This document shows, piece by piece, positions 12,858-19,070 of a DNA stretch of 46,888 nt (position 1 is its first letter; each line of letters opens with the position of its first letter). This stretch comes from an uncultured Bacteroidales bacterium (GTDB lineage Bacteria; Bacteroidota; Bacteroidia; Bacteroidales; F082), in contig CAJOIS010000012.1 of assembly GCA_905234645.1 (NCBI GenBank), positions 1 to 46,888 of the forward strand. Reading direction: 5' to 3'. The translations under genes and the position numbers were made by a program. A model generated the notes under the pieces. The model made no database searches. It was given only the letters and a program-made list of their open reading frames with translations, and was not told where the DNA came from.

Positions 12858-15287
12858 ATGAAAAGATTCCTCTCAATATCAATTTGTTTGCTCATTGCAA
12901 CACTTTCTTTTGCGCAATCTCAGCAAGGCTTCGTTAAAACCAAAGGCCGTATGGTCAACGGCAAACTAGTCCCTGGACAAGGACTTACGGGTGCCATGGT
13001 ATCGGTGCAAGGCCGCACTCCCGTGCTTGTTAACGCCAACGACGGTGCATTCTCCTTCCCTACGCCCAACACGACATTTCGTCTTGACTCGGTGATGAAA
13101 AAAGGATACCAGCTGGTGGACATGGAAGCCTGCCCGAAAAACTACGAGCGCTCCTCCAACCCACTCTATATCATCATGGAGACACCCGAGCAGCAGTTGC
13201 AAGACAAGCTCAACGCCGAACGCAAGATTCGTCGAAACCTGCAAAAGCAGTTGCAGGCCAAGGAAGACGAGATTGAAGCCCTCAAGGAAGAAAGTGCCAT
13301 CTCGATGGAGGAATACCAAAGACTATTGCAGCAACTGTATGCCGAGCAAGAGAGCAACGAACACCTCATCTCCGACATGGCCAAGCGTTATTCCGAGTTG
13401 GACTATGACCAGTTGGACGATTTCTACCGCCAGGTTTCGTATTGCATTGAGAACGGCGAGCTTGTGAAGGCCGACTCGCTGCTGAACACCAGAGGCGATG
13501 TCAGCAAACAAGTTGAGGAACAGATACAGAAAGGACAAGCCATCCGCGAGCAAGAAGAATTGTTGAGCCAAGCCAAAGCAGTGCATGCTGCCGACAATGA
13601 GGAGTTGGCGAAGCGCTGCTACAGCTACTACGAGACTTTCGCAGCACAACATCTGAACGACACCGCCGCCTATTACCTTGACCTGCGAGCCAGCTTGGAC
13701 ACCACCAACGTCGAATGGCTCATGGATGCCGGATCCTATTTCTTGAATTACGTGGCTGATTTCGACAAGGCCTTGTCTTTGTTCAACATGGCACTACGCC
13801 AATCACAGCTTCAAAAAGACAATGGACCCGATGCCATGGTGGATGTCTATACCAATATTGGACTCGTGTATTTTACCACAGCAGACTACAAAAAGGCCTT
13901 GGACAACCTACAGCTTGCCTTGGACATGGGAAGACAAAACTATGGCAAGGAAAACACCAGAGTGGCAACGGCCTTACACTACATAGGACAGGTGTATTAC
14001 AAACAAGGGGACTTCAAAAGCGCCTTGAACTATTTCTTGGAATCATTGAAAATCGATGAGAAAGCTTTAGGCAAAGAAGACAACAAACTGGCATGCGTTT
14101 ACAATGACATAGGTTTGGTCTATTATGAACAAAGCGATATCGATAAGGCTTTGGAATACTTCGAGGAGGCCTTGAAAATACAAGAAAAAACTGTGGGTTT
14201 GGACCACAAGGACGCCTCTTCGACATACAACAATTTCGGGCTTGCTTATGCCTATAAAGGCGATCATGAAAGCGCATTGAAGTATTACAACAAAGCCTTG
14301 GAAATCCTGGAAACGCTTTTCGGAGACTATTATCCCCGTATCGCGAAGACCTACTCCAATATCGGCTGGGAATACTATTCCCTCGGCAATTACGAGAAGA
14401 CGTTGGAGTATTTCCAAACAAGCCTGGAAAGGGGAGAGAAGATATTCGGGGGAAAGCATCCCGATGTCGCCACCTACAGTTATAATATTGGTTGGGTGTA
14501 TTATATGCAGGGCAAATACACAGAATCCATGGAATATAGCGAAAGGGCCTTGAAAATACGCGAGGAGGTATATGGCAAAGAGCATCCCGACGTCGCCTCA
14601 GTTTACAACACCATGGGAAAGTTGTATTACGAGTTGGGCGACATCGACACATCCATGCAATACTTCCAAGAGGCCTTGGCTATCATGGAAAAAGTGTTTG
14701 GCAAAGACAGTCCGAAACTCTCCAAGGTCTTTGACAATCTTGGGATGGTATACAACAAAAAAGGCAACTACGACAAAGCCTTGGAATACTATCGCAGAGC
14801 CTTGAAAATCAGAGAAGACGCATTAGGAAAAGATCATTCAGAAGTCGCGATTGTCTATAACAACCTCGGCATCGTGTACTCCGACAAGGGCGACTATTCC
14901 AAAGCCGCCGAATGCTATCATAGGGCAATGGAAATCTGGTTGAACCAATACGGAGAAGACCATCCTTATCTTGCGGCAGCCTACAACAACATAGGACGCG
15001 CCTATTTCAGCCAAGGAGATAACGAAACAGCCCTTTTATACTACAATAAATCATTGAATATCCTGAAGACCAAATACGGCGAAGACCATCCTAACACCGC
15101 CAAGGTGTTTGTCTCCATCGGAAAAGTTTATTATAGTCAAGGCGACTACAAGACTGCCTTAGAGTATTATCAGAATGCTTTGGAGATCAGGAGAAACAAG
15201 CTCGGTGAAGACCATCCAGATGTTATCAGCACCATAGAAAGAATCAACGAAGTCAAAGCCAAGATGGGAGAGCAAGGAGAAGAATAG
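12858..15287 (+). CDS. Secreted TPR-repeat protein (kinesin-light-chain type)
   Basis: An 809-residue protein. Signal peptide (FLSISICLLIATLSFAQ), then a carboxypeptidase-regulatory-like beta domain (residues about 25-105: VKTKGRMVNGKLVPGQGLTG), a long coiled coil (about 110-190, QQLQDKLNAERKIRRNLQKQ), a helical region, and eleven consecutive TPRs of exactly 42 residues from about residue 325 to 790. Each repeat follows VYNNIGxVYYxxGDYxxALEYY and ends GEDHPD, the TPR_10/TPR_12 pattern of kinesin light chains. The 126-bp period is well kept at protein level. Bacteroidota proteins of this plan often end in a sensor kinase or HTH domain; this one ends after the last repeat with a short acidic tail. 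Partner unknown. Convergent to the PCMD gene with a 4-bp gap and no visible terminator. Confidence 0.85.
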   Translation: MKRFLSISICLLIATLSFAQSQQGFVKTKGRMVNGKLVPGQGLTGAMVSVQGRTPVLVNANDGAFSFPTPNTTFRLDSVMKKGYQLVDMEACPKNYERSSNPLYIIMETPEQQLQDKLNAERKIRRNLQKQLQAKEDEIEALKEESAISMEEYQRLLQQLYAEQESNEHLISDMAKRYSELDYDQLDDFYRQVSYCIENGELVKADSLLNTRGDVSKQVEEQIQKGQAIREQEELLSQAKAVHAADNEELAKRCYSYYETFAAQHLNDTAAYYLDLRASLDTTNVEWLMDAGSYFLNYVADFDKALSLFNMALRQSQLQKDNGPDAMVDVYTNIGLVYFTTADYKKALDNLQLALDMGRQNYGKENTRVATALHYIGQVYYKQGDFKSALNYFLESLKIDEKALGKEDNKLACVYNDIGLVYYEQSDIDKALEYFEEALKIQEKTVGLDHKDASSTYNNFGLAYAYKGDHESALKYYNKALEILETLFGDYYPRIAKTYSNIGWEYYSLGNYEKTLEYFQTSLERGEKIFGGKHPDVATYSYNIGWVYYMQGKYTESMEYSERALKIREEVYGKEHPDVASVYNTMGKLYYELGDIDTSMQYFQEALAIMEKVFGKDSPKLSKVFDNLGMVYNKKGNYDKALEYYRRALKIREDALGKDHSEVAIVYNNLGIVYSDKGDYSKAAECYHRAMEIWLNQYGEDHPYLAAAYNNIGRAYFSQGDNETALLYYNKSLNILKTKYGEDHPNTAKVFVSIGKVYYSQGDYKTALEYYQNALEIRRNKLGEDHPDVISTIERINEVKAKMGEQGEE

Positions 15288-15291
15288 GTCA

Positions 15292-16239
15292 TTAATACTC
15301 CAGCCTGATTTCATCCACCCAAAGCACATTGTCGAGCGCGCCGACGAAAGCGCCTTGGCTGCCAGATGTTATCGCCATCACTGCATGAGTGACAGGACAA
15401 TCCGCCTCGGCCCAACCCTCTTCGATGATGCGCTTTTTCTTACCTTTGCTATTGAGGGCATACATGGTCTTGTCGCCCGAAATCAAATCCATATAGGGCT
15501 GATAATCCTTTGAGTTTCTGGCATCGCCATATATGACGGGGAGACGGAAATTATTCACCCAACCATCGGAGGTTTTGTCGACATGATACATCGCCGTGCC
15601 GACACGCTTGGCGTGGATGTTGCCTTTGGAGTCTTCCCAACGGTATTGCAGGATGAACAAAATCTCAGCCGGATCATAGCCATCGAATTCTATAGTGCGG
15701 AAAGTGGTGCCTTTCACCAACTTTCCTGTATTTGGAATCTTGGATTTATAATTGAGTACCAATGCCTTAGGACGCTTGGTGAACGGAATGCCCCAGTCCA
15801 TGAAAGCATAGGGATCGTTGACACCCGTGACGGGTTCCAGCATCTTGCCCCAATAAATCGAGCCTCCAGCCAGCACCTTGATGTTCACCATTCCTGCCAC
15901 CTTGCAGTAGGCGAATTGCGTGACAAGCTTGGCGCAGCGTCCCTTAGGACCACGGTCGGGGGTGACATTGGTGCTGGTCTTCACAACGCCCATCACCTTG
16001 GCAAAGGCATTGGAGGTGGCCCAGATGGTATTCGTGTAATCGTAGGGTTCGTTGCCGCTAATCGTGTCTGTCGGACCAGGGATATACAAAGTTTTCCTTT
16101 GGCCGCCAATGATCTGAGACTCGTCGATATAACGCACGGCCCACTGCTCAAAGTCGCCGAAAGGCACCTTCTCGTAGCGTTGGCCGTAGGCCATCACACT
16201 GAATAAAATACTCAATATGATTATTTGTACTTTTGCCAT
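15292..16239 (-). CDS. Secreted PCMD-domain protein
   Basis: A 315-residue protein with a signal peptide (KVQIIILSILFSVMAYGQ). The mature part matches the PCMD family (putative carbohydrate metabolism domain): an FGDFEQW start typical of the family, IWATSNAFAKVMGV, GPKGRCAKLVTQ, NIKVLAGGSIYWGKM, IPFTKRPKALVLNYK and a C-terminal DNVLWVDEIRLEY that closes a jelly-roll-like fold. The function of PCMD is unproven; many members are surface proteins near glycan genes. Start chosen at 16239; it overlaps the end of the short-chain dehydrogenase gene by 19 bp, so it is the last gene of the steroid-reductase operon, an unusual place for a PCMD protein. Confidence 0.8.
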   Translation of the reverse strand: MAKVQIIILSILFSVMAYGQRYEKVPFGDFEQWAVRYIDESQIIGGQRKTLYIPGPTDTISGNEPYDYTNTIWATSNAFAKVMGVVKTSTNVTPDRGPKGRCAKLVTQFAYCKVAGMVNIKVLAGGSIYWGKMLEPVTGVNDPYAFMDWGIPFTKRPKALVLNYKSKIPNTGKLVKGTTFRTIEFDGYDPAEILFILQYRWEDSKGNIHAKRVGTAMYHVDKTSDGWVNNFRLPVIYGDARNSKDYQPYMDLISGDKTMYALNSKGKKKRIIEEGWAEADCPVTHAVMAITSGSQGAFVGALDNVLWVDEIRLEY

Positions 16240-17036
16240 AACTTCGCAACCAAGGCCTTGGGCAGGATAGCGATCAAAGGCGGCAGATAAATGTTCATGA
16301 AGCCCGGCTTCACGACACGTTTCTTGCGCATCATGCCTTTCAAAGCCTTCCTTACCAGCCATTGTGGTGTACCGATTACTCCAATTTTCACGCCAAACTG
16401 TAACAGACTAGGTTTCAACCTGTAAAGCGGCGTGGCGATGGCAGCGGGGCAGACCGTAGTCACACCCACACTATAGGGACGCATCTCAAAATAGAGCGAC
16501 TTGCCGAAGCTCTTCAGATAGGCTTTCGTGGCAGAATAGATGGTAATGCCGGGACAAGGCAACGTAGCCGCCATGGACGACATATTAATAATGTAGCCAT
16601 AGCCGCGTTTCTTCATCTCCTCACCAAACAATATGGCCAGCCGTGTCGGGGTAAACATGTGCAGTTTCAACATCGTCAAGGCCTTGCCTTCGTTTTCACG
16701 GCTCAGTTCCTCAAAGAAAAACATGCCGGCATTGTTGATGAGGATGTCGATTTGCAGATTCTCAGATTGGCAGAAGGCAAGCAGTTCGTCTGCCGCCGTT
16801 TCGGTTGCCAGATCCTGGAAACGCGTCATCACTTGGATGCCGTTTTGCGTCTTCAAATCCTCAGCGGTCTTCTGGAGTTCCAGCTCTTGGTTGCTGACCA
16901 GCAACAGGTTGCAGCCGATTCCAGACAGCTGGCGTGCATATTCCAAGCCCATGCCCGAACTACCGCCCGTAATCAAAGCCCAAGGGTGATGTCCGTGCGT
17001 CTCCTGAAACCTATTCAGCCATTTCTTGGTATTCAT
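16221..17036 (-). CDS. Short-chain dehydrogenase, candidate 3-beta-hydroxysteroid dehydrogenase
   Basis: A 271-residue classical SDR. NAD(P)-binding TGGSSGMG at residues 23-30, NNAG at 101-104, and the catalytic set Ser153/Ser154, Tyr167 and Lys171 in NMSSMAATLPCPGITIYSAT plus K. The C-terminal region PLYRLKPSLLQFGVKIGVIG to KALVAKLWQKYK is hydrophobic and basic, like HSDs that work on membrane-partitioning substrates. It overlaps the OYE-family gene by 4 bp (ATGA). Together with the steroid 5-alpha-reductase and the OYE enzyme this suggests a 3-keto/3-hydroxysteroid dehydrogenase, as found in gut Bacteroidales that make iso- and isoallo-bile acids. The SDR family is certain; the steroid substrate is inferred from context. 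Confidence 0.85.
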   Translation of the reverse strand: MNTKKWLNRFQETHGHHPWALITGGSSGMGLEYARQLSGIGCNLLLVSNQELELQKTAEDLKTQNGIQVMTRFQDLATETAADELLAFCQSENLQIDILINNAGMFFFEELSRENEGKALTMLKLHMFTPTRLAILFGEEMKKRGYGYIINMSSMAATLPCPGITIYSATKAYLKSFGKSLYFEMRPYSVGVTTVCPAAIATPLYRLKPSLLQFGVKIGVIGTPQWLVRKALKGMMRKKRVVKPGFMNIYLPPLIAILPKALVAKLWQKYK

Positions 17037-18268
17037 CCCTTGTTTTCCGCTTTTTTGATTTCTTTCTTGATGCTCCTAGGCAGTTCCTCGTCGACGCAAT
17101 GGTGGCACTTCATCTCAAGCGTGTACATACGTCCAATGCAGTAGTTGGAGTGCTTGCACTCGCTTCGCGTCACCTCGCCACTTTGCAGCTTGTTGACGAA
17201 GTCTGTGTCGTTGATCAAGGCACGTGCCATCTGGAAGGCCACGAAGCCCGAGTCCAGCACCTCTTCCATCTTTTCCTTCGACACCATGCCACCCACATAG
17301 ATCAGAGGCATCTTCAGGTTGGCGCGGAACACTTTGGCATCCTCCAAGAAATAGCCTTCGCTGTAAGGCACCGTGGGAATCACCACACGACCGAACACCG
17401 CCAAGCCCGCCTTGAGCCACCAGAACTTCTTCGGGTCCATATAGTAGCGCAGGGTCTTGAGCGGCATGGCACCACGCATCACCTCCATCGGGGCTTTGCT
17501 GACGAAACCAGCGGTCAACACGAGGGCATGAACGCCAAGCTTTTCCAGTTCCTTCGCCACGATGATGCAGTCGTCTTGGTCCATGCCACGGCGGAAGCCG
17601 TCGTGCATGTTCACCTTGACCACCACGGCCATGTCGTTGCCTGCGGCACGCATCACCTCTTCGATGACGAGTTTCATGAAGCGCATGCGATTGTCAAGCG
17701 TGCCTCCGAACTCGTCGTGACGGTGGTTGGTGTAGGGCGACAGGAACTGGCTGATGAGATAGCCGTGTCCTGCATGGATCTCCACGCAGTCGAAACCTGC
17801 CTTACGGGCTAGGTCGACAGCCTTACCAAAGTCAAGAACGAGAGAATAAATCTCCGCCTTCTTGAGTTTTCTGGCGAAGGTCGGCGAATAGAGGTTGAAG
17901 CCTCCCGAGGCCCCCACAGGCTTGCAGCCGCAGGTGGCACGGTGCGTCATGTTGCCGCAGTGTCCCAACTGGATGGAAGCCTTGGCTCCATAGAAATGCA
18001 CTGCATCGGTGAGACGTTTCAGGTCGGGGACGATTTCCTCACGCATCCACAGTTGTCCGTCGAATGACAGTCCCGACTGGTTGACGGCAGCATAGGCAAC
18101 CGTCGTCATGCCGACGCCGCCACGCGACACTGCGGTATGGTAGTTGATCAAATCATCGGAAGGACGGTTGCCGTAAGCCATATTCTCGAAGGCCGCCGAA
18201 CGTATCACCCTGTTGCGCAAGGTGATAGGACCGATGTTACAAGGGGTAAATATGGGTGAATTTTCCAT
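17033..18268 (-). CDS. NADH:flavin oxidoreductase (OYE family), candidate steroid 5-beta-reductase
   Basis: A 411-residue TIM-barrel flavoprotein. FMN and substrate motifs are visible: TLRNRVIRSAAFENMA, KASIQLGHCGNM, and the family hallmark EIHAGHGYLISQFLSPYTNH followed by RHDEFGGTLDNRMRF, then IYVGGMVSKEKMEEVL near the phosphate site. Unlike BaiCD-type enzymes (about 640 residues) it lacks the extra FAD/NAD domains. Near the C-terminus four cysteines in CKHSNYC...KCHHC are spaced C-x5-C-x10-C-x2-C rather than the usual [4Fe-4S] pattern of that subfamily. It lies 7 bp after the 5-alpha-reductase gene and overlaps the SDR gene by 4 bp. In gut Bacteroidales an OYE enzyme in this setting reduces 3-oxo-delta4 steroids to the 5-beta form; that is the likely role here. 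Confidence 0.85.
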   Translation of the reverse strand: MENSPIFTPCNIGPITLRNRVIRSAAFENMAYGNRPSDDLINYHTAVSRGGVGMTTVAYAAVNQSGLSFDGQLWMREEIVPDLKRLTDAVHFYGAKASIQLGHCGNMTHRATCGCKPVGASGGFNLYSPTFARKLKKAEIYSLVLDFGKAVDLARKAGFDCVEIHAGHGYLISQFLSPYTNHRHDEFGGTLDNRMRFMKLVIEEVMRAAGNDMAVVVKVNMHDGFRRGMDQDDCIIVAKELEKLGVHALVLTAGFVSKAPMEVMRGAMPLKTLRYYMDPKKFWWLKAGLAVFGRVVIPTVPYSEGYFLEDAKVFRANLKMPLIYVGGMVSKEKMEEVLDSGFVAFQMARALINDTDFVNKLQSGEVTRSECKHSNYCIGRMYTLEMKCHHCVDEELPRSIKKEIKKAENKG

Positions 18269-18275
18269 AATAAAA

Positions 18276-19043
18276 TCAATATATAAAGGGGATTATTCTC
18301 TTTACTTTTTTCGTATCCAGTTCATCGCCGAACTCAACCTTGTACTTGTCGTAAATGCGTGAAGCACGGGGACCAAGGTTGGCAAAAGTCCACAAGGCGA
18401 ACACAGCACCAGCCCACGACCAGGTGAGGATGGCAAAGCCGACCCATTCCACAAACTCGCCAAAATAATTGGCCGATGTGACATAACGGAACATGCCTCC
18501 CTTTGGCAGATAATGCCTAGTGTCGCCATCCTTGCGAAGGTTGCGTATGATGTCGTCGGACTGAATGTTGATATACATGCCGATGATGAAAATCAAGAAA
18601 CCGGCGATGAACCTCGGATCAGTAAGCCAGTCGCGGCCATAATAGTCGATGGGCGAAAGGTAGAAGATCCAGCCTCCCTGCATCAGGGCGTTCAGCACAT
18701 TGAATGTAACACCCATCACGATGATGGAAAGGGGCATCACACTGTTGCCACGCAACCGGAAGGGGAACACGAACGAACGCTGAAGGTAATGCAGCTCAAA
18801 CAAAAACAGAAACGCCAGACGCACCATGTCGTCGCGACGGTCTGAAAACAGCCATAGCAAAAGAATGGCGATGAAAACGGGCGATTCCATCAGCACCCAA
18901 CCCAGCTTGTTGTTAACCGCCGGCCCCCATTTCTTGTCATAGAATTTGCCGTAGCCAGCGTCCACAAAAAAGAGGCTTATAAACACTATCAAGGCCACTA
19001 CCGCCATGATAATGAGAAAGATATTAAAAGCATGCAATGTCAT
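18276..19043 (-). CDS. 3-oxo-5-alpha-steroid 4-dehydrogenase (SRD5A family)
   Basis: A 255-residue polytopic membrane protein with about six or seven hydrophobic helices. Its C-terminal half matches steroid 5-alpha-reductases closely: LPKGGMFRYVTSANYFGEFV, EWVGFAILTWSWAGAVFALW, then NLGPRASRIYDKYKVEF and the ending KVKRIIPFIY. The human enzymes carry the parallel pieces P-x-GG-x-F-x-YVT-x-ANYFGE-x-x-EW and KIIIPFLF. The family reduces the delta4 double bond of 3-oxo steroids with NADPH. It is the first gene of a four-gene operon with an OYE reductase, an SDR and a PCMD protein. Alternative: a DUF1295-type relative acting on another lipid, but the match over YVTSANYFGE and IIPF favours a steroid-type substrate. 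Confidence 0.88.
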   Translation of the reverse strand: MTLHAFNIFLIIMAVVALIVFISLFFVDAGYGKFYDKKWGPAVNNKLGWVLMESPVFIAILLLWLFSDRRDDMVRLAFLFLFELHYLQRSFVFPFRLRGNSVMPLSIIVMGVTFNVLNALMQGGWIFYLSPIDYYGRDWLTDPRFIAGFLIFIIGMYINIQSDDIIRNLRKDGDTRHYLPKGGMFRYVTSANYFGEFVEWVGFAILTWSWAGAVFALWTFANLGPRASRIYDKYKVEFGDELDTKKVKRIIPFIY

Positions 19044-19062
19044 CTCTAATTAAATAAGGTGA

Positions 19063-19070
19063 CAAAAATA
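19063..19070 (-). promoter_or_regulatory. -7 box TATTTTTG of the steroid-reductase operon
   Basis: Minus strand full consensus match 19 nt before the ATG at 19043. It is the only good promoter seen for the four genes 19043 to 15292. Confidence 0.7.

Follow-up and report, generated by a model that had tools for sequence, protein, structure and literature searches.

A variant of the gut-Bacteroidota A-ring operon in an uncultured Bacteroidales bacterium

In this text, the window is the whole stretch of DNA analysed, 46,888 nucleotides from an uncultured Bacteroidales bacterium, which is contig C12 of the host genome assembly (G000; 2.59 Mb, 84% complete). On its minus strand, a tight run of four genes, from 19043 to 15292, codes for a membrane 5-alpha-reductase (5AR) of the SRD5A family, an Old Yellow Enzyme (OYE), a short-chain dehydrogenase/reductase (SDR) and a PCMD-family protein. 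This operon belongs to the A-ring cluster of gut Bacteroidota, of which it is a variant in gene content. With moderate confidence, we favour the reading that its products work as a relay that flattens the bent A/B ring of a steroid or bile acid, and not as a choice between products. The features discussed below are the following (all on the minus strand; aa, amino acids):

18276..19043, minus strand: SRD5A-family membrane 5AR, 255 aa (Pfam Steroid_dh, PDB matches, tree)
18885..18890, minus strand: M52-E53 of the 5AR, aligned with Q56-E57 of the SRD5A 'QEY' signature, the Y of which is Y86 here
17033..18268, minus strand: short OYE, 411 aa, candidate delta4-3-oxo 5-beta-reductase/dehydrogenase (Pfam Oxidored_FMN, 196 bits; structure model)
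17363..17470, minus strand: OYE insertion spanning residues ~267-302, which includes a hydrophobic helix of positive charge at 283-296 (profile alignment, model)
17096..17158, minus strand: C-terminal Cys motif of the OYE, with C371, C377 and C388 invariant and residue 391 mostly C or H (alignment)
16221..17036, minus strand: SDR of the 'SDR2' subfamily, 271 aa, candidate hydroxysteroid dehydrogenase (Pfam adh_short, 130 bits)
16524..16577, minus strand: catalytic S154, Y167 and K171 of the SDR, invariant in 21 aligned SDR2 sequences
15292..16239, minus strand: PCMD-family protein, 315 aa, the fourth gene, overlapping the SDR gene by 19 bp (Pfam PCMD, 71.8 bits)
19063..19070, minus strand: TATTTTTG, a match to TAnnTTTG, the Bacteroidota -7 consensus

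An earlier, sequence-only reading of this DNA had described a minus-strand operon at 15292-19070 with gaps or overlaps of -4, 7 and -19 bp. Four tightly spaced genes are indeed found there, with gaps of 7 bp between the 5AR and OYE genes, -4 bp between OYE and SDR and -19 bp between SDR and PCMD; the last value belongs to the PCMD gene, which that reading did not describe. Judging from this spacing, the four genes would form a single transcript. The arrangement is not a product of chance, because the 5AR has homologues at 82-90% identity (the best 120 of 5366 with E <= 0.001) and the gene order recurs across the Bacteroidales. A promoter had also been placed at 19063-19070. Although the TAnnTTTG match is present, the motif is frequent in the window (39 matches vs 21.6 expected) and has, by eye, no TTG ~20 bases upstream; consequently, a promoter at this position is plausible but unproven. 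A plasmid search gave no match.

The synteny is shared well beyond this contig. Taking at least 50% identity as close, we found, among 295 sampled genomes of the order, a close 5AR in 35, a close OYE in 40 and both in 34. In 29 of these 34 the two genes are less than 1 kb apart and in one they are separated by 2.2 kb, while three have them on different contigs and one has a fragmented OYE. An OYE is likewise found within the examined stretch in 71 of 80 named loci, these being the best 80 of 592 in a ranking that used a Parabacteroides-like sequence as reference, for which reason their taxon mix is not a census. The cluster was seen in Parabacteroides, Phocaeicola, Bacteroides, Odoribacter, Butyricimonas, Alistipes, Barnesiella, Coprobacter and Muribaculaceae, and in the genus of the window a 5AR is carried by 59 of 99 genomes (25 of the 46 of good quality). 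Thus, the conserved synteny that had been suggested as a check is observed, and the 5AR-OYE pair is that of the known gut-Bacteroidota cluster.

According to excerpts of PMC10382948, the 5AR gene of P. merdae shares its cluster with genes for an NADH:flavin oxidoreductase and for a predicted 3-beta-hydroxysteroid dehydrogenase (3-beta-HSDH), and disruption of the 5AR prevents the formation of allolithocholic acid (alloLCA) derivatives. Additionally, partial text of PMC6069880 reports a 5AR gene in nearly all sequenced chicken-caecum Bacteroidetes isolates, the exceptions being two Odoribacter and one Parabacteroides distasonis. When compared with the P. merdae, Odoribacter laneus and Bacteroides dorei cluster, as described in excerpts of reviews (these strains' own sequences were not identified), the window has a 5AR of the Parabacteroides/Phocaeicola group with an adjacent OYE gene, in the same order and strand and with tight spacing. 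It differs in having SDR2 only, instead of the SDR3 of Phocaeicola and most Parabacteroides and Bacteroides loci, and in including a PCMD gene.

Two other arrangements were observed around 5AR genes. In five Parabacteroides-type loci (L045, L047, L048, L049 and L133), the 5AR gene lies downstream of genes for regulator-like, outer-membrane-factor-like, MFP-like and ~1,040-aa RND-like transporter proteins, families that were judged by eye. In three loci of uncultured Bacteroidetes/Bacteroidales metagenome-assembled genomes (MAGs; L062, L094 and L111, contigs of 3.1-6.7 kb), the 5AR gene is followed by SDR2-type genes and OYE was not detected; the names of these MAGs suggest non-host sources.

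The membrane enzyme had been read as SRD5A-like, with YVTSANYFGE and IIPF as hallmarks, and both are present. Its Steroid_dh score is 148.4 bits (gathering score, 22.6), and its PDB matches include PbSRD5A (7c83, E 3e-54), SRD5A2 (7bw1, E 2.5e-37) and, with far less significance, TECR (6e-9). In a tree of 34 rows, which left out SRD5A3, it falls in a group of 26 with the 5ARs of Parabacteroides, Phocaeicola, Alistipes, Barnesiella and other gut bacteria, with a support (81/98) that is not strong by ultrafast bootstrap; four more distant Bacteroidales sequences fall outside this group. The placement of TECR, of a DUF1295-like protein from the same genome and of human SRD5A2 is unsure, as these are long branches. 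A grouping with DUF1295 proteins had been named as the outcome that would speak against a steroid enzyme. This identity was rejected, as the DUF1295 score of the 5AR is 28.8 bits in a comparison that, again, left SRD5A3 aside.

More distant members of the family were also found. The host genome has a second, distant Steroid_dh match of 25 bits (L002, positions 105669-106007 of contig C4), DUF1295-like by eye. In a more distant Bacteroidales 5AR clade, at 38-43% identity (L125, L126, L128 and L131, from genomes G098, G294, G175 and G123, respectively), the 5AR genes adjoin one family of epimerase-like proteins. One of these proteins (L126, 4177-5157) has NCBIfam matches to HpnA and to the sterol demethylase protein SdmB, both below cut-off, which suggests a sterol or hopanoid context for this clade.

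The active site of the 5AR departs from the published signature. In the available portions of PMC7815742, the QEY signature comprises Q56, E57 and Y91, eight NADPH residues are listed, the Q56A and Q56L changes lost the activity of human SRD5A2, and H231A is the named exception among variants with reduced activity. Like PbSRD5A and human SRD5A2, the window enzyme is of the SRD5A family and retains the catalytic E and Y and seven of the eight NADPH-contact residues; unlike them, it has M for the Q of QEY and I for H231. Both differences are general in the group: among 114 distinct gut-type 5ARs, the Q is M in all, E and Y are invariant, and the H231 position is always I, L or V. M also occupies the Q position in the four distant Bacteroidales 5ARs. 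The window 5AR is therefore, by its sequence, a member of a variant clade and not a QEY enzyme. The M is probably compatible with activity, because it is shared by two named Parabacteroides 5ARs (that of P. merdae was not identified by name) and the P. merdae disruption, as cited above, is reported to prevent alloLCA derivatives.

The OYE had been presented as a 5-beta-reductase. Its family was correctly recognised, but stereochemistry cannot be read from sequence, and excerpts of PMC10382948 call the role of such a 5-beta-reductase (5BR) 'hypothesized'. The structure model has a pLDDT of 89.5, and the PDB entries closest to it in fold are those of 2-naphthoyl-CoA reductase and other OYEs. With BaiCD and the long 5-beta-reductases of the ci2350 family, the protein shares an OYE barrel and, where the proton donor lies, the motif HAGHGY. 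By contrast, it ends at 411 aa and lacks the second flavin/NAD(P) half of BaiCD-type proteins (~640 aa); its match to NF041087 reaches 187 bits against a cut-off of 825, and the best stretch ends at 257 of 642. The Cys motif is also different. C371, C377 and C388 are conserved in 95 of 95 sequences and C or H is found at 391 in 69, with a spacing unlike that of the four-Cys 4Fe-4S motif of long OYEs; a metal site at this motif may be proposed. Short forms such as this one are outside the ci2350 tree because, as stated in part of PMC12238238, the latter left out sequences of less than 500 aa.

In the profile alignment, nothing in YqjM (1z41) corresponds to the insertion of the OYE. The inserted helix 283-296 lies in a stretch of the model with pLDDT 63-85, and residues 283-303 keep their 21-residue length, as well as a positive net charge, in 94 of 95 sequences. 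Only ~4% of the 14-residue stretches of the protein are as hydrophobic as the helix, while its amphipathic moment is unremarkable (15% of stretches are as high). The insertion might serve as a lid or as a membrane contact.

The third gene also sets the window apart from the better-known loci. Clustering of the open reading frames downstream of OYE separates two SDR subfamilies, SDR2 and SDR3, with a median identity of ~24% between them, and the window carries SDR2 only. The S-Y-K noted earlier is present. The accompanying name, 3-beta-HSDH, is unsupported, as the protein is an SDR2 and the host genome, at 84% completeness, gave no match to one Phocaeicola SDR3 query at E <= 1e-10. No hydroxysteroid dehydrogenase is named among the PDB matches of SDR2 (best 60 of 162) or SDR3 (6 matches), and the top NCBIfam match of SDR2 is a mycolate reductase, far under its cut-off.

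Of the named loci, 66 extend at least 3.8 kb downstream; among these, the order is 5AR-OYE-SDR2-SDR3 in 21, 5AR-OYE-SDR2 in 18 and 5AR-OYE-SDR3 in 11, while six have the 5AR alone, four 5AR-OYE and six other orders. With loci assigned to taxa by title, SDR3 occurs without SDR2 in the single Phocaeicola locus and in seven of eight Bacteroides loci (the eighth, from MAG L072, has both). Three of five Parabacteroides loci have SDR3 and none SDR2; of the others, one is truncated and that of P. gordonii (L047) shows a 5AR with no OYE or SDR detected in 16.8 kb. Both subfamilies are found together in one Odoribacter, one Butyricimonas, one Sanguibacteroides, three Barnesiella and two Muribaculaceae loci, and 11 of the 13 Alistipes loci of adequate length have SDR2 only, the other two having both. 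In the genus of the window, one genome (G014) has, at a distance of 3.4 kb from the 5AR, an SDR3 match of 41% identity, and another, without a 5AR (G006), has one of 36% identity; because of these two, SDR3 was probably lost in the line of the window. A table in the accessible part of PMC12789469 has P. merdae and Odoribacteraceae under 3-beta-HSD and an Alistipes under 5-alpha-reductase only, which fits SDR3 being the 3-beta enzyme. It is weak evidence, because B. dorei is missing from the 3-beta list though excerpts of PMC10382948 name it as a producer of isoallolithocholic acid (isoalloLCA).

Excerpts of PMC10672800, PMC9645264 and PMC10382948 describe the conversion of bent into flat bile acids through a 3-oxo-delta4 intermediate. 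In the first two, the enzymes act in series: 5BR yields the 3-oxo-delta4 compound, 5AR the 3-oxo-5-alpha compound and 3-beta-HSDH the isoallo product. Since the reviews give a series, the operon is best read as a flattening relay. In such a relay, the OYE would most likely interconvert 3-oxo-5-beta and 3-oxo-delta4 steroids, working as an oxidising enzyme on a bent bile acid; the 5AR would then reduce the delta4 double bond with NADPH to a flat 3-oxo-5-alpha product; and the SDR would interconvert 3-oxo and 3-hydroxy forms as the first step, the last step or both. Overall, the A/B ring would be flattened. With SDR2 in place of SDR3, the pathway of the window may end in a 3-oxo-5-alpha or a 3-alpha-hydroxy-5-alpha (allo) compound instead of a 3-beta (isoallo) one. 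By analogy, the window proteins would share the chemistry reviewed for the cluster; which way the OYE runs, which stereochemistry the SDR has and which substrate is used in this host are likewise what we infer.

Several observations weigh against this reading. The same reviews are not unanimous: a passage of PMC10672800 has both reductases acting on 3-oxo-delta4-deoxycholic acid (3-oxo-delta4-DCA), the PMC12789469 table puts Bacteroides and Parabacteroides strains under 5-beta-reductase, and PMC10382948, in the part cited, speaks of an equilibrium in addition to calling the role of 5BR hypothesized. A reversible OYE would accommodate the series, the 5-beta-reduction and the equilibrium. The Q-to-M change in all relatives examined, in a position where Q56A/L abolished SRD5A2 activity, the missing SDR3 match in the host genome and the six genomes in which a close OYE occurs but no close 5AR count on the same side, as do the bile-related results given below.

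The sequence-only reading had suggested that the organism chooses between flat and bent products. Such a choice is unlikely, as the excerpted reviews mainly draw 5BR followed by 5AR, even if some of their passages also give 5-beta-reduction. We consider it improbable that the 5AR and the OYE compete for one delta4 intermediate, with a 3-beta-HSDH finishing either product. Both families are encoded in one operon, and the 5-beta-reductase listing of PMC12789469 and the action of both enzymes on 3-oxo-delta4-DCA in PMC10672800 agree with competition, but the excerpted isoalloLCA scheme is serial, no switch is obvious within a single operon, and the SDR is not of the subfamily found in Phocaeicola and most Parabacteroides loci. 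Another proposal, to which we give very little credence, is that the operon acts on an endogenous lipid (polyprenoid, quinone or fatty-acyl) and that the steroid reading reflects family bias. SRD5A3 acts on polyprenol, as noted in PMC7815742 (partial text), and TECR, by the name of its PDB match, on fatty acyls; the M for Q of QEY and the mycolate reductase match of SDR2 point the same way. Against this, SRD5A2 and PbSRD5A score far above TECR (in the comparison without SRD5A3), the patchy distribution of the 5AR in the genus (59/99 genomes, many of them incomplete) argues against a core lipid role, and the P. merdae disruption, as reviewed in the cited part of PMC10382948, speaks against this proposal too.

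Bile salt hydrolase (PF02275, the CBAH family; E <= 1e-30) is found in 21 of 35 genomes of the order with a close 5AR vs 26 of 260 others, which supports a bile context in general, although the co-occurrence is confounded by habitat and kinship. Nevertheless, the 84% complete host genome has no CBAH match, and none of the 13 5AR-bearing genus members, the host included, has a strong full-length one; four of the 13 have partial matches of 42-62 bits, over the Pfam cut-off, and the single strong match in the genus belongs to a genome without a 5AR (G009). Moreover, among the loci examined, the nearest named relatives (L096, L109 and L124), the 5ARs of which have 84-87% identity to that of the window, are MAGs with the labels sheep reticulum, roe deer duodenum and water buffalo abomasum, two of these sites being upstream of bile entry. 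Bile acids are thus a plausible native substrate. Owing to the lack of a strong hydrolase in 5AR-bearing genus members and to the labels of these relatives, a serious rival is that the enzymes serve chiefly for dietary or plant sterols or for steroid hormones (as 3-oxo-delta4 sterones), in a foregut bacterium with only rare exposure to bile acids. The selectivity of PbSRD5A for progesterone, mentioned in an excerpt of PMC7815742, favours this proposal, which we judge unlikely overall: the 5AR groups with those of Parabacteroides and Phocaeicola, 5ARs co-occur with the hydrolase across the order, partial hydrolase matches do exist in the genus, and the sampling site of a MAG is not its niche, particularly with only three such relatives. 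Taken further, the window might represent a foregut-adapted branch in which an M-E-Y SRD5A has a changed proton relay, a short OYE docks at the membrane and binds metal through a non-standard Cys motif, and SDR2 serves as a 3-alpha-HSDH both on entry and on exit. Together, these enzymes would flatten non-bile sterones to 3-alpha (allo) forms, and an exported PCMD protein would bind or deliver the steroid. We regard this combination as quite doubtful.

As for the PCMD protein, its N-terminus resembles, by eye, a signal segment and contains no Cys, so that the protein is probably secreted or exported. Its model is weak (mean pLDDT 67) and resembles 4jrl and 3s30, with a best TM of 0.45. The solved PCMD proteins BACOVA_00087 and BVU_0247 share with it the Pfam family and, as far as the weak model indicates, the probable fold, although the window protein differs in being encoded inside a steroid-type operon. 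A PCMD gene with 81% identity stands at the same operon position in L109, and was not found in the near relatives L096 and L124. Relatives occur in 28 of the 35 genomes with a close 5AR vs 16 of 260 others. In these 28, the distance to the 5AR is less than 2 kb in four (window included) and less than 15 kb in two more, and the genes are on different contigs in 22, where fragmented assemblies may hide neighbours; among the 80 named loci, PCMD is within 6 kb of the 5AR in eight. An obligate partnership was considered and rejected, as PCMD also occurs in those 16 genomes without a close 5AR and is mostly not adjacent to the 5AR.

Convergent with the end of the operon, at 12858-15287 on the plus strand, the window codes for an 809-aa repeat protein, TPR-like by eye; a relative of it also adjoins the operon in L096.

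Operons of this kind are known; the present one has a dehydrogenase other than that of the better-studied gut genera and an extra PCMD protein. On the enzymatic side, the QEY rule, derived from human and proteobacterial enzymes, fails in the Bacteroidota sequences examined. On the biological side, isoalloLCA inhibits Gram-positive bacteria at low micromolar levels (PMC10382948, in part), and such bile acids are studied for their effects on immune cells (PMC10672800, in part). If it is true that SDR2-only operons, such as the one in the window and those in 18 of the 66 named loci, stop at 3-oxo-5-alpha products or yield 3-alpha ones, counts of 5AR genes would overestimate the producers of isoallo bile acids, and SDR2 vs SDR3 would be a simple marker to separate such producers from other bacteria.

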